Below are positions 44,852-52,757 of a stretch of DNA of 64,000 nt, one piece after another. The stretch is from Anaerobaca lacustris (GTDB lineage: Bacteria; Planctomycetota; Phycisphaerae; Sedimentisphaerales; Anaerobacaceae), in the NCBI RefSeq assembly GCF_030012215.1, contig NZ_JASCXX010000010.1, positions 1-64,000 on the forward strand, written 5' to 3'. The position numbers were made by a program, and so were the translations under genes. Numbering within the stretch: position 1 is the first letter of the stretch; every line of letters starts with the position of its first letter. The notes below the pieces were generated by a model that did no database searches, was not told where the DNA came from, and was given only the letters and a program-made list of their open reading frames with translations.

Positions 44852-44854
44852 CAT
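44826..44854 (+). promoter_or_regulatory. promoter overlapping the trmD stop codon
   Basis: TTGACG (44826-44831), 17 bases, TAGCAT (44849-44854); serves the gene at 44929. Confidence 0.65.
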
Positions 44855-44928
44855 TGGTCCTGGTTGCTTTGCAGTCACACCCGGCCTCGGCCGGGAAGAC
44901 TCGAATCGCGGGATGTGGGAGAGTGCTC

Positions 44929-46110
44929 ATGCAATGTCCGACGTGCGGCAGAGAGAATGCAGATGGGGCAATGAAGTGTGCTTCGTGTGGCCAGCCGTGC
45001 CCCGTGTCCCAGGGCCCACCGACGACCGTCCAGATCAAACTCAGCGGTGCGGCTGTCGCCTCTGCCGTCCTGGCGGTTCTGGCCTGGCTCTGTTTCGTGC
45101 CGGCTGTGATTGCGGCGATGGATCGATACATTCTGAATCCCGAATCGTCCTTCGTCATCCTGACGGCTCTGGTGACCCTTTTCAGCATGCCCAGTGGGTT
45201 CATCCTGGGGATCGTCGGCCTGGTCGAAATCAGCCGAAGTGGTGGCCGCCGAACGGGATACGGGTTCGCGGCGATCGGTGCAAGTGCTCCAGCCGTCTTT
45301 GTGCTGACGCTGATGTATCTCCCATTTGTTGCCGGTAGAGAGCTGGCGCCGAGGACGACTTGCGGCACGAATCTGGCAATGATTGGCAAGGCGATGCTGA
45401 TCTATGCCAACGATTACGATGACAAGCTGCCCCTGGCAGGGGGGCGAGGCACAGTCTGGGGACCTGGATTGGCCGACTGGCGCAGCGAGCGCCAGGCCAA
45501 TGCCTTCGGGCTCGATCCCAACGGTTTCGGCGGGCAGGCGACGATCAGCTCGAGCCTGTACCTGCTCGTTCGGTATGGGGATGTGAGCCCGAAGTCCTTC
45601 GTTTGCCGAGGAGAGCGAGGCGTCAGGGAGTTCGATCCAACGAAGTACCGCGTCGACGGCAAGAGACTGACCGACGTCTGGGATTTTGGCCCAAACCCGG
45701 CCAAGCACTGCAGCTATGCCTATCATCAACCCTATGGCCCCTATGCCCTGACGACGTCCAGCGAGCCTGGAATCGCTGTCGCCGCCGATCACAATCCGTG
45801 GATCGACAGTGCCCGGTGGAAGGCCGACGACTTCGCTGCGTTCCGACCGGTTGTAGGGTCTGCCGCTACCGGTGATGAGATGGGGCTCGGCAACGCAAAG
45901 GCGCACGGGCGAGACGGCCAGAACGTTCTGTTCCTTGACTCGCATGTGGAGTTTGCGAAGCGTGCTTTCTGCGGTTTGGAGAACGACAACATCTACACCG
46001 CCTGGGACGGCGACGACAAGGCCCGCGGGCGGGCGCCGACGCCATACGACAGCCAACCGACCGATCCACGCGATTCGCTGCTTCTCAGCGATCCGCCGCT
46101 GAAGCGGTAG
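44929..46110 (+). CDS. zinc-ribbon membrane protein with H-X9-DG type domain
   Basis: A 393-aa protein. The N-terminus is a zinc ribbon (CPTCGRENADGAMKCASCG), followed by three hydrophobic segments (about 40-155) typical of DUF4190-like proteins, then an extracytoplasmic domain starting at TNLAMIGKAMLIYANDYDDKLP and ending with GNAKAHGRDGQNVLFLDSHV. The latter half matches the domain usually attached to planctomycete prepilin-like (DUF1559/H-X9-DG) proteins, but here it is joined to a cytosolic ribbon and several spans rather than a pilin-type N-terminus. ATG 44929 follows GGGAGAG. Confidence 0.78.
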   Translation: MQCPTCGRENADGAMKCASCGQPCPVSQGPPTTVQIKLSGAAVASAVLAVLAWLCFVPAVIAAMDRYILNPESSFVILTALVTLFSMPSGFILGIVGLVEISRSGGRRTGYGFAAIGASAPAVFVLTLMYLPFVAGRELAPRTTCGTNLAMIGKAMLIYANDYDDKLPLAGGRGTVWGPGLADWRSERQANAFGLDPNGFGGQATISSSLYLLVRYGDVSPKSFVCRGERGVREFDPTKYRVDGKRLTDVWDFGPNPAKHCSYAYHQPYGPYALTTSSEPGIAVAADHNPWIDSARWKADDFAAFRPVVGSAATGDEMGLGNAKAHGRDGQNVLFLDSHVEFAKRAFCGLENDNIYTAWDGDDKARGRAPTPYDSQPTDPRDSLLLSDPPLKR

Positions 46111-46557: not shown

Positions 46558-46679
46558 GGAATTGTCGTGAAGAAATCACCTCCCGTTTGCCGAAGGGTGC
46601 CGGCAGAGTCTAACGAATGCACCCAACCGTCCCAAACCTTCTGCATGAGGCAGACGACCTGTAAAGGAACGAACAAACG

Positions 46680-48713
46680 ATGGACGCAAAACCTGGATCC
46701 GCGAATCCAAGACCGCCCGACAAGGGCAAAGCGACCTCCGGCGGGACGAAATCCCTGGGGCCGGTCCCCAACCTCGAGGAGCACGTCAACAGCGAGTGGT
46801 GGCGGCAGATCTTCAACTCGACCTACCTCAAGACCGACGGCGACGTGGTGGACGATCTTGGCGTGACCGCCAAGGAAGTGGACGCGTTCTGCGAGATCCT
46901 CAAGCTCCAGAAGGACCAGCGTCTGCTCGACGTCTGCTGCGGGCAGGGTCCGGACGTGCTCGAACTGGCCCGTCGCGGCTTCGCCAACGTCGAGGGGCTC
47001 GACCGCTCGCACTATCTCGTGCAAAGGGCTCGGACGCAGGCCAAGAAGGAAGGCCTGAACGTCCGGTTCAAGGAGGGTGATGCGCGCAAACTACCTTACG
47101 CCACCGACACGTTCGACGTGGTGACGATCCTGGGCAACAGCTTCGGCTATTTCGAGACGATCGAAGACGATATGCGCGTGCTGAAAGAGGTGCGGCGCGT
47201 GCTCAAGCCGTGGGGCCGCCTGCTGATCGACGTCGCCGACGGCGAGTACCTGCGGCGCAAGTTCCAGCCCCGCAGTTGGGAGTGGATCGACAAGCACTAT
47301 TTCGTCTGCCGCGAGCGGTCGCTGTCGCTGGACAAGCAGCGTCTGATCTCGCGCGAAGTGGTCACCCACGTGGAGAAGGGTGTGGTGGCCGACCAGTTCT
47401 ACGCCGAGCGGCTCTACAGCCGCAAGGGCATCCAGGAGCTGCTGACCAAGGCGGGTTTCTCTGACGTCATCGTGCACGGGCAGATCTCCGGCGACTCCCA
47501 GCGCAACCAGGACCTGGGCATGATGGAGAAGCGCATCATGGTCACCGGGTCCGTGCGGAAGGAGTGGACGCCTCGAAAGCACAAGAAAGACTTCAAGACC
47601 GTCACCGTCCTGTTCGGCGACCCGGCCAAGCCCGATCCGCTCAAGCCGCTGTGTGTCTTCGACGACGACGATTTCTACACGATCGACCAACTCAAGAACG
47701 CCCTGCGCGAGCTGGAGGCCTATCGCTACACGTACCTGAGCAACCACGACACGCTGATCGACGACCTGCGAAAGCTGATCGGCAAGACCGATTTCGTCTT
47801 CAATCTCTGCGACGAAGGGTTCGGCAACGACCCACGCAAGGAGCTGCACGTGCCGAGCCTGCTGGAGGTGCTGGGCATCCCGTACACGGGGGGCGGGCCG
47901 CAGTGCCTGGCGTTTTGCTACGACAAGTCGCTGGTTCGCGGCGTCGCCAAGGAGATGCAGGTGCCGGTGCCCGAGGGGTTCTTCATCAAACCGGAGGACA
48001 GCACGTTCGAGCTGTCGTTTGCCTTTCCGGCGATCTGCAAGCCAAACTTCGGCGATTCCAGTTTCGGCATCACCCAGCGCAGCGTGACCAATACGGTCGA
48101 GGAGCTGGTCAACGCGATCACGGAGATTCGCGAGAAGTTCGGCTATGAGAAGCCGATCCTCGTCGAGGAGTTCCTGACGGGCAAGGACTTCACCGTCGGG
48201 ATCATCGGCAACCCGCCGGAGTCGTATACTGTGCTGCCGATTATCGAGGAAGACTACTCGATGCTGCCGCCCGAGCTGCCGCGACTGTGCGGCTACGAGG
48301 CCAAGTGGCAGCCGGACTCGCCGTACTGGCAGATCAAGTCGATTCCCGCCCAACTGCCCGAGGAGGCCGAGAAGCTCGTCGTCGAGTGCTGTCTGAAGCT
48401 GTTCGAGCGGCTCGAATGCCGCGATTACTGCCGCTTCGATTGGCGGCTCGACGCCCAGGGCACGCCCAAGCTGCTGGAAGTCAACCCCAACCCCGGCTGG
48501 TGCTGGGACGGACACATGGCCAAGATGTCCAAGATCGCCGGCATCTCCTATTCCGAGATGCTCGAAGCGATCCTCAAGGCCGCCGAGGACCGCCTCGGAC
48601 TCCAGGCCGCCCGCGCCAAGACCGCCAACGGCACTCGCAACGGCCAGGCCAACGGGATCGTCGCCGTCGACGCCGCCCGAACGCCAGCCGAAACGGAGTG
48701 CTCCAAGACATAA
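46680..48713 (+). CDS. fusion of SAM methyltransferase and ATP-grasp (D-Ala-D-Ala ligase-like) ligase
   Basis: A 677-aa two-domain protein. The N-terminal half (about 30-300) is a class I methyltransferase with motif I LLDVCCGQG at 82-90, DARKLPYATDTFDVV and LKEVRRVLKPWGRLLIDV. The C-terminal half (about 310-640) is an ATP-grasp ligase of the D-alanine-D-alanine ligase type: NLCDEGFGND, LLEVLGIPYTGGG, FPAICKPNFGDSSFGI, ILVEEFLTGKDFTVGI, and the metal-binding EVNPNPGWCWDG near 600. The tail is low complexity. AAAGGAA precedes the ATG. No Mur genes or biosynthetic partners flank it, so it is unlikely to be the housekeeping Ddl. Confidence 0.88.
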   Translation: MDAKPGSANPRPPDKGKATSGGTKSLGPVPNLEEHVNSEWWRQIFNSTYLKTDGDVVDDLGVTAKEVDAFCEILKLQKDQRLLDVCCGQGPDVLELARRGFANVEGLDRSHYLVQRARTQAKKEGLNVRFKEGDARKLPYATDTFDVVTILGNSFGYFETIEDDMRVLKEVRRVLKPWGRLLIDVADGEYLRRKFQPRSWEWIDKHYFVCRERSLSLDKQRLISREVVTHVEKGVVADQFYAERLYSRKGIQELLTKAGFSDVIVHGQISGDSQRNQDLGMMEKRIMVTGSVRKEWTPRKHKKDFKTVTVLFGDPAKPDPLKPLCVFDDDDFYTIDQLKNALRELEAYRYTYLSNHDTLIDDLRKLIGKTDFVFNLCDEGFGNDPRKELHVPSLLEVLGIPYTGGGPQCLAFCYDKSLVRGVAKEMQVPVPEGFFIKPEDSTFELSFAFPAICKPNFGDSSFGITQRSVTNTVEELVNAITEIREKFGYEKPILVEEFLTGKDFTVGIIGNPPESYTVLPIIEEDYSMLPPELPRLCGYEAKWQPDSPYWQIKSIPAQLPEEAEKLVVECCLKLFERLECRDYCRFDWRLDAQGTPKLLEVNPNPGWCWDGHMAKMSKIAGISYSEMLEAILKAAEDRLGLQAARAKTANGTRNGQANGIVAVDAARTPAETECSKT

Positions 48714-49094: not shown

Positions 49095-49160
49095 GCGTCG
49101 CGTGAGGTTGGGACGTGCTCTGTCCCGATCGTGCTTGGTTCTTGGGATTGGCAGGGGACT

Positions 49161-49821: not shown

Positions 49822-51096
49822 TCAGCGCACGGCGGCCGGGCGGGGGCAGGCGTCGGCCAGTTCGAGGATGCGCCTGACGAGGATCTCGCCGGTCCGCTCG
49901 CCGAGGCAGGTGCGGGTGATGTAGTTGTAGCGGTCGAAGCTGTCGAAGTCTTCCTTCGTGAGGATGTAGCCGAAGGCGTCGTTGGTCAGGCCGAAGAGGA
50001 AGTTGTGCCGGCCGTGCATCTTGCGTTTGAGGTAGTAGCCGATGTTGGGCATCGCCTCGCCCGGCATCGTCGCCATCTGGGCGTCGCCGAGGTTCACGAC
50101 GTGGAGCCGCGTGGCGATGTGCCCGTCGTCGTCCAGCTTGAATCCCAGGGGCGAACGCTGCACGACGGCCCGCAGCATGTCGTTCTCCACCGGCAGGCGC
50201 ACGATCGCGCTTTCGCAGACCAGCGCCGGGTTCTCCTGGATCATCGCATCGCCGATGATCCGCATCCCCTCATCGGCCAGCAGGTGGCCGATGCGAACAC
50301 ATTCGTCCCACGTCTGGATGTCTTTCCCATCAGGGCCGCGACAATCGGCGGTGACCATGCCGCCGAGCGCCGAGTTCATGAAGATGCCCACGCCGCCGCC
50401 CCGCGCCTCGATCCGCTCGTATAGAGGGCCGACGAAGTCGGGACTGAGGATGCCCTGATTCGAGCCGAGCACTTCGGGATGGCACGCGTAGTTGACGAGC
50501 GTGGCGATCGGTTTGCGGTCTCGATCCACGACCTGCAGGACGTGACATCGCGGGTCGTAGAGCCTCTCGGCGTAGTAGTTGTAGGCGATCTTGCCCTGGG
50601 CGTTTCCCGTGGCGATCTTCACCGCCGCCGGGCGGAGGTCGGCCGCCGCGGCGTCGATTGCCTCGGCCAGCGCCGCGCAGACGCTGTCGAGATAAGCCAG
50701 GTCGCACGAGGTCTTGCCCTGCCGGTCGGGAAAGCCATAGCAGTCCGGGGCGCTGTGTGTATGCGTGGCGCCGATCAGGATGTTGGCGGCCGGCACGCGC
50801 GACACCTGCGCGTGGACTTTCTCGCACAGCACGCCGGGGAAGCCGAGGAAGTCGGTGCTGCAAATCGCGATGCGGGTGTCGCCCTGCTCCAGCACGAGCG
50901 CCCGGACGGTCAGTTCGCCCATCTTCCTCGTCGTCGGGTTCGACGGCCCGACCCCGCCCGAGACGGGCAGCAGTGGCTCGGGCGTCACACAGCGCACGGC
51001 GATGGCCGCGCGAAACTCGGCCGACGCCGACCCTGCAAACAGCAGGCCCAACGCCGTAATGATACACGCCAGAGTGAGAAACGGTCTGCGTCCCAT
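49822..51096 (-). CDS. neutral/alkaline ceramidase N-terminal-like secreted protein
   Basis: A 424-aa exported hydrolase-like protein. Signal peptide RRPFLTLACIITALGLLFAG; then TRKMGELTVRALVLEQGDTRIAI, ILIGATHTHSAPDCYG (His ligands), and VNYACHPEVLGSNQ, all typical of the neutral ceramidase N-terminal domain. In planctomycetes such proteins are numerous and act on unknown amide or ester substrates. ATG 51096 follows AAGGAGAC; an in-frame upstream start at 51249 lies in repeat sequence. Confidence 0.85.
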   Translation of the reverse strand: MGRRPFLTLACIITALGLLFAGSASAEFRAAIAVRCVTPEPLLPVSGGVGPSNPTTRKMGELTVRALVLEQGDTRIAICSTDFLGFPGVLCEKVHAQVSRVPAANILIGATHTHSAPDCYGFPDRQGKTSCDLAYLDSVCAALAEAIDAAAADLRPAAVKIATGNAQGKIAYNYYAERLYDPRCHVLQVVDRDRKPIATLVNYACHPEVLGSNQGILSPDFVGPLYERIEARGGGVGIFMNSALGGMVTADCRGPDGKDIQTWDECVRIGHLLADEGMRIIGDAMIQENPALVCESAIVRLPVENDMLRAVVQRSPLGFKLDDDGHIATRLHVVNLGDAQMATMPGEAMPNIGYYLKRKMHGRHNFLFGLTNDAFGYILTKEDFDSFDRYNYITRTCLGERTGEILVRRILELADACPRPAAVR

Positions 51097-51140
51097 GCCT
51101 GTCTCCTTTGCTGTCCTTGTTGTTCGACCGACGCGGACCA

Positions 51141-51169
51141 TTGTAGATCGTACGTCCTCGCACGACAAG
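51141..51169 (-). promoter_or_regulatory. REP-derived promoter for the ceramidase-like gene
   Basis: Minus strand TTGTCG (51169-51164), 17 bases, TACAAT (51146-51141). Both hexamers fall on the ends of a degenerate REP hairpin. Confidence 0.55.
51144..51167. repeat. degenerate REP hairpin
   Basis: GTAG (51144-51147), then ATCGTACG-TCCT-CGCACGAC with two mismatched pairs. A GGCAGCCTCAA-family hairpin follows at 51171-51203. Confidence 0.55.
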
Positions 51170-51234
51170 GACGCCATCCCCAAGCTTCGCTTGAGGCTGC
51201 CACCCGCCGCATGACTTGGCGATGGCCCAGTGGC

Positions 51235-51316
51235 GTAGGGGCGAGGCATGCCTCGCCCTTACCATTGCGTGCGAAAACGGCGCAAGAGAAAGGACGAGCG
51301 GGGACGCTCGCCCTAC
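51235..51316. repeat. REP doublet, GTAG 8-4-8 family
   Basis: GTAG (51235-51238) with GGGCGAGG-CATG-CCTCGCCC (51239-51258); then the inverted partner GACGAGCG-GGGA-CGCTCGCC (51293-51312, one mismatch) and CTAC (51313-51316). It lies between two minus-strand genes. Confidence 0.7.
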
Positions 51317-51338: not shown

Positions 51339-52757
51339 TCAGACCTTGGTCAGGTCGAAGCCGTTGCGGTACTCGGCCTCGACGAACTTCTGGGCCTCGG
51401 GCGCGTTGGTGACCTTCATGTTGGGCCCGTCCCAGAGGATCTTCTTGCCGGCGCGAATGGCGACGTCGCCGAGCAGGACGAACTCGGTCAGGCGGGCGCC
51501 GTAGCTGAAATCGCTGCACGCCTTCGGCCCGCCCTTGCAGGCGTCGAGCCAGTCGCGATGGTGGCCCTTGCTTCGCGGCAGCACCCGCGGCGGCCGGCCG
51601 TAGTCGCGCATCTTCGACTCGGGGATAATGCGGGGCGACTGGCTCCAGCCGCCGCCCATGATCGTGCCCTTCTCGCCGATGAGCAGTACGCCGTTGCCGC
51701 CACCGCCCATCTGCCGGCCTTCCTCCAGCTCCGCCGGTCGCGGCGGCATTAGACCTCCGTCGTACCAGTGGATCGTCACCGGGCCCCGATCGCCTTCGGC
51801 GCCGAACTCCCAGACGACGTGGTTGTTGCCGCCGATGACTTCGGCATCGACGAAGTCGGTCTTGACCGCCTCGACGCTGATCGGGTGGCCCAGCTTCAAC
51901 GCGGCGAACGCCGGGTCGAGGTTGTGCACCGACATGTCGCCGACGGCGCCGGTGCCGAAAGCCCACCAGCCGCGCCAGTTGTACGGGGCGTACGCCGGGT
52001 GGTAGGGTCGATCGGGTTTGGGTCCGAGCCAGAGCTTCCAGTCGAAGCCGGCCGGCACGGGGGGCGTGTCGGTCGGGCGGCCGCGACCGCGCGACCAGCC
52101 GCCGGCACTGCTCCAGGCGTGGACCTCGCCGACCTTGCCGATCGCGCCGTCCCAGACCATTTCGCAGGTCAGCCGGTTGCCTTCGTCGCTGCGGCCCTGA
52201 TTGCCCATCTGCGTGGCGACGCCCGCCTCGGCGGCAATCTTGGCGACGACGCGGGCTTCGTGGACATTGAGCGTCAGGGGCTTTTCGCAATAGACGTGCT
52301 TGCCGCGATGCAGCGCCGCGACGCTGACGTAGGCGTGGGCGTGGTCCGGCGTCGCGCACAGCACGGCGTCGATGCCCTTCTCCTTGTCGAGCAGCTCACG
52401 GAAGTCGAGGTAGTCGTTGCATTGGAAGGCGGGGTTCTGCTGGCGGTAGTGCTTCTCGACCTCGGCCTTGACCGGCAGCCGGCCGGCGACGCCGCCGTAG
52501 TAGAAGCGGCTGTAGTCGTCCTGGTCCATCGGATCGGCCACCGCGACGATCTGCGCATCATCGTGGGCGAACAGCCCGCGCGCGTTGGTGCGGCCCTGCC
52601 CGCCGCAGCCGACGATGGCGATGTAAACCTTCTCGCTGGGGGCGACGAACTTCGGCCCGCCCAGCACGAATCGCGGCACGATGGTGAACCCCGCCGCTGC
52701 GCCCGCCGCCGAACTGAGGAACTGCCGCCGCGACAATCTCGAACTCCTGCTACTCAT
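51339..52757 (-). CDS. Gfo/Idh/MocA family oxidoreductase, Tat-exported (second copy)
   Basis: A 472-aa relative of the protein at 7421-8833. Tat signal SRRQFLSSAAGAAAGF, Rossmann motif IAIVGCGGQG, CATPDHAHA, CEKPLTLNVHEARV, and the shared C-terminal signatures GGLMPPRPAEL and SQSPRIIPESKMRDY. Its catalytic core is intact. It lacks the nitrilase partner of the first copy. GAGAGGG precedes the ATG and the promoter is at 52808-52836. Confidence 0.93.
   Translation of the reverse strand: MSSRSSRLSRRQFLSSAAGAAAGFTIVPRFVLGGPKFVAPSEKVYIAIVGCGGQGRTNARGLFAHDDAQIVAVADPMDQDDYSRFYYGGVAGRLPVKAEVEKHYRQQNPAFQCNDYLDFRELLDKEKGIDAVLCATPDHAHAYVSVAALHRGKHVYCEKPLTLNVHEARVVAKIAAEAGVATQMGNQGRSDEGNRLTCEMVWDGAIGKVGEVHAWSSAGGWSRGRGRPTDTPPVPAGFDWKLWLGPKPDRPYHPAYAPYNWRGWWAFGTGAVGDMSVHNLDPAFAALKLGHPISVEAVKTDFVDAEVIGGNNHVVWEFGAEGDRGPVTIHWYDGGLMPPRPAELEEGRQMGGGGNGVLLIGEKGTIMGGGWSQSPRIIPESKMRDYGRPPRVLPRSKGHHRDWLDACKGGPKACSDFSYGARLTEFVLLGDVAIRAGKKILWDGPNMKVTNAPEAQKFVEAEYRNGFDLTKV

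Follow-up and report, generated by a model that had tools for sequence, protein, structure and literature searches.

The window analysed here, a stretch of 64,000 nucleotides, carries at positions 46680..48713 on the forward strand a coding sequence of 677 amino acids in which a methyltransferase is joined to an ATP-grasp ligase. The gene starts with ATG, its last codon is the stop, and a putative ribosome-binding site read from the sequence (AGGA, 46665..46668, forward strand) lies 11 nucleotides 5' of the start. It stands alone, 569 nucleotides after the previous coding sequence (44854–46110) and 417 nucleotides before the next, which begins at 49131. Upstream are ffh-, rpsP- and trmD-like genes, as read from the sequence, and downstream is a gene for a class II aldolase. 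The coding sequence between trmD and the fusion (44854–46110) specifies a membrane-type protein with an N-terminal zinc-ribbon, homologues of which recur next to the fusion or close to it in related Phycisphaerae (loci L013, L041 and L042). Two other genes of the window are on the reverse strand, one for a neutral-ceramidase-like protein (49825–51249, a weak match) and, next to it, one for a GFO/IDH/MocA oxidoreductase (51342–52757) that resembles glycoside 3-dehydrogenase BT_2158 with a score under the model cut-off.

The protein begins with a class I SAM methyltransferase domain (residues ~28–292, 46761..47555, forward strand like all features of the gene), which is recognized by Pfam and has PDB matches to 9ri2, 3d2l and 1wzn. 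Within it, Methyltransf_25 covers residues 83–179 with an E-value of 1.7e-21. A short linker (residues 293–305, 47556..47594), which is the gap between the domain limits set for the trees, leads to an ATP-grasp ligase domain with the Ddl fold (residues ~306–640, 47595..48599, Pfam; structure match at Z ~28 to 1ehi and 8evy). Here Dala_Dala_lig_C covers residues 444–632 with an E-value of 1.3e-25, and both Pfam matches are far over the cut-off. The C-terminal tail (residues 644–677, 48609..48710) is not conserved, is modelled with a pLDDT below 50 and is probably disordered. About 100 full-length homologues are co-linear with the protein, with the same domain order and span, which is far beyond chance; together with the single reading frame and the two Pfam domains they establish the genuine fusion that had been proposed from the sequence alone. 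Strong purifying selection acts on both domains, with dN/dS values against close relatives of 0.064–0.12 in the methyltransferase and 0.041–0.085 in the ligase. Local confidence is good in the structure models of the fusion, whose mean pLDDT values are 84 and 87. Since the pTM is 0.55–0.56 in two models, with and without tails, and the relative placement of the domains is therefore not predicted confidently, the idea of substrate channelling between them was set aside and we do not claim it.

For the methyltransferase half, class I membership was taken to mean a Rossmann-like fold, a glycine-rich SAM motif and the acidic residue of motif II. The domain has the Pfam match, aligns structurally with 3d2l at a Z-score of 25.3 and carries G88, G90 and D108 without exception, and it is by these features a class I SAM-dependent methyltransferase. 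An alignment of 53 members places the SAM-binding motif I region at residues 83–90 (LDVCCGQG, 46926..46949), and D84, C87, G88, G90 and D108 of the SAM motif are invariant among them. The same alignment contains a family-specific invariant set consisting of W200-E201-W202, R211-E212-R213, D238-FYAERLY and R275-x-QDLGMM. Stand-alone class I methyltransferases of Phycisphaerae (L101–L105) and PDB entry 9ri2 are 32–41% identical to the domain and share with it the SxGYF and R-x-W features. However, none of the five aligned stand-alone Phycisphaerae proteins has the RNQDLGMM block, and their genes do not adjoin an ATP-grasp gene.

In the ligase half, the ATP-grasp residues K416, K454, S461, R585, D587, E600 and N602 are invariant in 53/53 members. 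Cofactor-binding residues are therefore present in both domains, with the SAM motif and the ATP-grasp residues kept in every aligned member, and both catalytic cores are intact, as the sequence-only reading had held; a domain stripped of such residues, which that reading had named as evidence against itself, was not found. The fold of the ligase is that of Ddl (Z 28.2 to 1ehi and 27.9 to 8evy, with Dala_Dala_lig_C over the Pfam cut-off), and Ddl and VanA are the closest enzymes of solved structure, although the fold search speaks for its listed families and unlisted families may match too. The earlier description of the ligase as being of the Ddl type is correct for the fold but not for the function, given that the NCBIfam Ddl cut-offs are missed and the substrate-side residues are replaced. 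The best scores against these Ddl models are only about half of the cut-offs (129.8 bits versus 243 for NF002378, and 119.7 versus 245.65 for TIGR01205), and the fusion falls under every one of them.

The differences from Ddl are concentrated on the substrate side of the active site. The family signature LEVNPNPGWCWDGH (residues 599–612, 48474..48515) keeps the Mg ligands E600 and N602, and the D-Ala-binding serine of Ddl is replaced in it by G611, which is invariant among the 53 members and lies inside NPNPGWCWDG. With Ddl positions that we take to follow E. coli DdlB numbering, S281, H280 and Y216 correspond to G611, D610 and W543 of the fusion. The N-terminal E15 of Ddl aligns to P318, in a region where a 12-residue insertion makes the alignment unsure. 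W543, D610, G611 and H612 are all invariant and stand in place of the Ddl residues. What Ddl shares with the fusion is the fold and the residues for ATP, Mg and the acyl phosphate, whereas it lacks the N-terminal methyltransferase domain. Because the Ddl substrate residues have been exchanged for other residues that are themselves invariant, the comparison points to a ligase substrate that is defined but different from that of Ddl. Judged by these residue tests, the fusion is not a D-Ala-D-Ala ligase.

A search of the whole source genome (5.7 Mb, 117 contigs) gave six matches to Dala_Dala_lig_C. A separate Ddl is encoded at C10:127455–128030 on the reverse strand and scores 147 bits against this model versus 94 for the fusion. 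It keeps the HEREVSL, LHGEFGEDG, GSSVG, YQAKY and NTIPGFTTHS motifs and adjoins an ORF that we called MurB-like by eye. The better score, the standard motifs and the MurB-like neighbour of this ordinary Ddl indicate that the fusion is not the housekeeping enzyme; a genome with no other Ddl, mentioned earlier as a second point against the reading, is not the situation here. The source genome also contains a related single-gene Ddl-like ATP-grasp outside the fusion (G000:C12:90150–90728, L002). The nearest unfused ATP-grasps that carry the EVNPNP and YxAKW motifs of the fusion are encoded by tandem Ddl-like genes of Phycisphaerae (L026, L028, L029, L032 and L035). These proteins form clades separate from the fusion (100/100), have no methyltransferase domain, and end in NPDISPDAG rather than NPGWCWDG. 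A GNAT-like sequence follows the tandem pairs or is fused to them.

A scan with one genome per species yielded 56 loci of the fusion family, nearly all of them end-to-end fusions and 50–98% identical. The bacterial carriers belong to Planctomycetota, Spirochaetota, Chloroflexota, Bacteroidota (Cyclobacterium), Nitrospirota, Omnitrophota, Atribacterota and Calescibacteriota, and further include one cyanobacterium (Waterburya) and Myxococcota/Desulfobacteria-type bins. The archaeal carriers are Lokiarchaeota, Jordarchaeum, Methanolobus, Methanomethylovorans and Methanophagales. In whole-genome samples, many of whose genomes are incomplete, a match was present in 8 of 294 Planctomycetota, 33 of 195 Asgard, 9 of 245 Nitrospirota-phylum (7 of them full length) and 1 of 244 cyanobacterial genomes, and in 45 of 295 genomes from the phylum of Methanolobus (methanogen-type archaea), where Methanoculleus-like genomes are among the carriers. 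Archaeal and distant bacterial fusions are 60–70% identical, and the mean column identity of the alignment is 70%. Carriage by mobile elements was considered and rejected, as there was no match in plasmids, nor in viral contigs when these were searched by close-relative patterns.

A separate phylogeny of each domain, which had been suggested as a check, was run. The methyltransferase and ligase trees share well-supported clades (Methanosarcinaceae, Lokiarchaeota, a mixed clade of nine members and a divergent clade of five) and, at lower support, a clade of Cyclobacterium with a lambdaproteobacterium. This agreement of the main clades suggests that the halves were inherited and transferred together, and on these trees the fusion looks old and passed on as one unit. 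Two stand-alone ATP-grasp copies, L142 and L143, group within the fusion clade. We tentatively regard them as later losses of the methyltransferase or as divergent copies, with a weaker placement for L142 owing to its long branch. L143 (L143:6317–7435) is a paralogue with 54% identity to the fused ATP-grasp domain, has a changed glycine-aspartate signature (WCWDS), and shares a short Asgard-sampled contig with a full fusion. The sole methyltransferase-only copy of the subfamily, L141, was considered as an unfused ancestor and rejected, since IS-like transposase ORFs flank it on both sides and it looks like a broken fusion.

No conserved operon was recovered, as all-against-all clustering revealed no family of neighbouring genes shared across the loci. 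The genes that adjoin the fusion on the same strand in distant lineages are nevertheless often ion or osmotic transporters, unrelated to one another and in many cases within 50 nucleotides. These include Na_H_Exchanger (L060, L072 and L144, with gaps of 7, 27 and 38 nucleotides), CorA (L075, gap 6; L083, overlap 7), Na_Ca_ex (L018, overlap 32; L090, gap 136) and CNNM (L091, gap 33). CitMHS lies downstream in the Asgard loci L163, L165 and L150 (gaps of 15, 34 and 191) and upstream in the Methanosarcina-like loci L230, L235 and L239, while MscS adjoins the fusion at L146 and an MS-channel-helix protein at L211. Ion or osmotic genes account for 12 of 87 adjacent same-strand genes and for 18 of 467 genes at a greater distance (Fisher p = 0.0008), in a rough post hoc count whose significance is inflated by noticing the enrichment first and then testing it on the same loci, which are partly related and so not fully independent, and whose similarity-based tally is biased by exemplars drawn in part from the adjacent position. 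A less biased but weak test compared multi-TM genes, of which there are 14 among the 87 adjacent same-strand genes and 42 among the 467 more distant ones (p = 0.04). P-type cation ATPases and CitMHS permeases also occur among the genes further from the fusion, genes for ion transport are common in general, and none neighbours the fusion in the window. Overall, we consider that the neighbour bias moderately favours a possible role in osmotic or ionic homeostasis.

Some archaeal lineages have constant neighbours of another kind. A proteasomal (proteasome-activating) ATPase gene is directly downstream on the same strand in six Asgard loci, in most cases 27–45 nucleotides away (L085, L153, L159, L164, L168 and other Asgard loci). 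DinB (IMS) is a neighbour in Methanolobus-like genomes, and an ORF that appears NifB-like by eye is a neighbour in Methanoculleus-like genomes. Citrate synthase is found 12 and 39 nucleotides downstream at L067 and L081, which belong to two different phyla. Control by a riboswitch (c-di-AMP, SAM, M-box or others) was rejected, in that tRNAs and a single distant TPP element were all that Rfam scans brought up in the window and in 47 loci (the short ones in full, some over as much as 18 kb).

The methyltransferase and ligase cores are intact, there are, as had been stated earlier, no peptidoglycan genes among the scanned genes flanking the fusion, and a role on amino acids, peptides or small molecules is the most sensible functional class among those first proposed. 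The presence of much the same fusion in distant bacteria and in archaea that have no bacterial-type cell wall likewise suggests that the protein probably makes a methylated small molecule and not cell-wall building blocks. From the families to which the domains belong, the N-terminal methyltransferase would methylate a small, amino-acid-like substrate with SAM as the donor, and the Ddl-like ATP-grasp domain, acting on substrates other than those of Ddl, would convert a carboxylate to an acyl phosphate that is then joined to an amine. The product would most likely be a methylated dipeptide-like or amide metabolite. As a rule the gene occurs singly, with no constant pathway partners, and the enzyme therefore probably draws its substrates from common metabolites; the recurrent transport neighbours suggest a product that serves osmotic or ionic homeostasis, perhaps as a compatible solute or ion-buffering metabolite. 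Our main reading is accordingly of a self-contained synthase of such a metabolite, with osmotic or ionic homeostasis as its plausible purpose, to which we assign a probability of roughly 0.4. In a bolder form, put forward only as a doubtful conjecture, the fusion would by itself synthesize an osmolyte or ion-stress metabolite of a new, methylated dipeptide-like class, and horizontal transfer would have spread it among Asgard archaea, methanogens and many phyla of bacteria. A methanogen osmolyte built by SAM methyltransferases is known from Methanohalophilus, where betaine is synthesized by GSMT and SDMT (PMC3176816). The likeness is by analogy only, as this system has no ligase and the fused methyltransferase domain resembles GSMT at the superfamily level only (E-value of 5e-11).

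The transport neighbours can also be understood differently. CorA, CNNM and the Na/Ca exchangers may reflect the handling of divalent metals, and several of the neighbours do move divalent cations; the fusion would then make a specialised metabolite or metal-binding molecule, such as a methylated dipeptide used in signalling, as an antibiotic or as a metallophore, instead of an osmolyte. Its patchy distribution and apparent transfer across phyla would fit, and natural-product pathways often contain Ddl-like ATP-grasp enzymes. In the mycosporine pathway, MysB is an O-methyltransferase and MysD a Ddl-like ligase, and the pathway is marked by the co-located MysA and MysC core genes. However, no NRPS, PKS, tailoring enzyme or dedicated exporter was seen among the neighbours examined, and bacterial and archaeal copies, at 60–70% identity, are more alike than one would expect of a gene of this kind, so that we view this explanation as unlikely.

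Very strong conservation (70% mean column identity) and the many carriers that are anaerobic, going by record titles, might instead indicate a protein that makes or modifies a cofactor or a redox or thiol metabolite, methylated and ligated to an amino acid, for mostly anaerobic lineages. Unlike core cofactors, however, the fusion is lacking from most genomes even inside one order or phylum, and its carriers include a cyanobacterium and Cyclobacterium, which makes this decidedly unlikely. The proteasomal ATPase beside it in six Asgard loci could hint at a modifier of macromolecules, in which the methyltransferase would methylate a protein, tRNA or lipid and the ligase would attach residues to it. 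This is hard to credit, in that ATP-grasp enzymes of the Ddl type use small molecules as substrates, the fusion has no predicted domain for binding macromolecules, and the proteasome link is limited to Asgard loci. Finally, a role in a variant peptidoglycan or cell wall, with a methylated D-Ala-type dipeptide as the product, an option that the sequence-only reading had left standing and that the kinship to Ddl and VanA could evoke, is very unlikely and close to untenable, because Asgard archaea and methanogens carry the fusion and have no peptidoglycan, the Ddl signature residues are replaced, the source genome has its own Ddl beside a MurB-like ORF, and the scanned flanking genes include none for the cell wall.

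Table 5 of PMC2613160 already listed the combination of domains in 2008, as the OMT-Dala_Dala_lig_C architecture, for Methanoculleus marisnigri JR1 and three further proteins. That listing, one row among methyltransferase domain combinations, has the two domains in the order found here, a likeness drawn from the domain order; it is in-silico only and gives no function, residues, phylogeny or neighbours. Beyond this row, we found no paper on the fusion in the open-access literature, a scope that most subscription papers fall outside. The architecture is thus known since 2008 but unstudied, and the present analysis describes its spread, its invariant residues, its distinctness from Ddl and its genomic context.

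The sequence alone invites annotation as a D-Ala-D-Ala ligase, a misleading label that would wrongly imply cell-wall functions in archaea and that is corrected here. The family includes culturable carriers, namely Methanolobus, Methanosarcina, Cyclobacterium and Waterburya. The fusion is present in 15–17% of the sampled Asgard and methanogen-type genomes, seemingly without fixed pathway partners, and very probably makes a metabolite that is yet to be assigned. If the link to its neighbours holds, it would represent a new compatible-solute or ion-buffer pathway.
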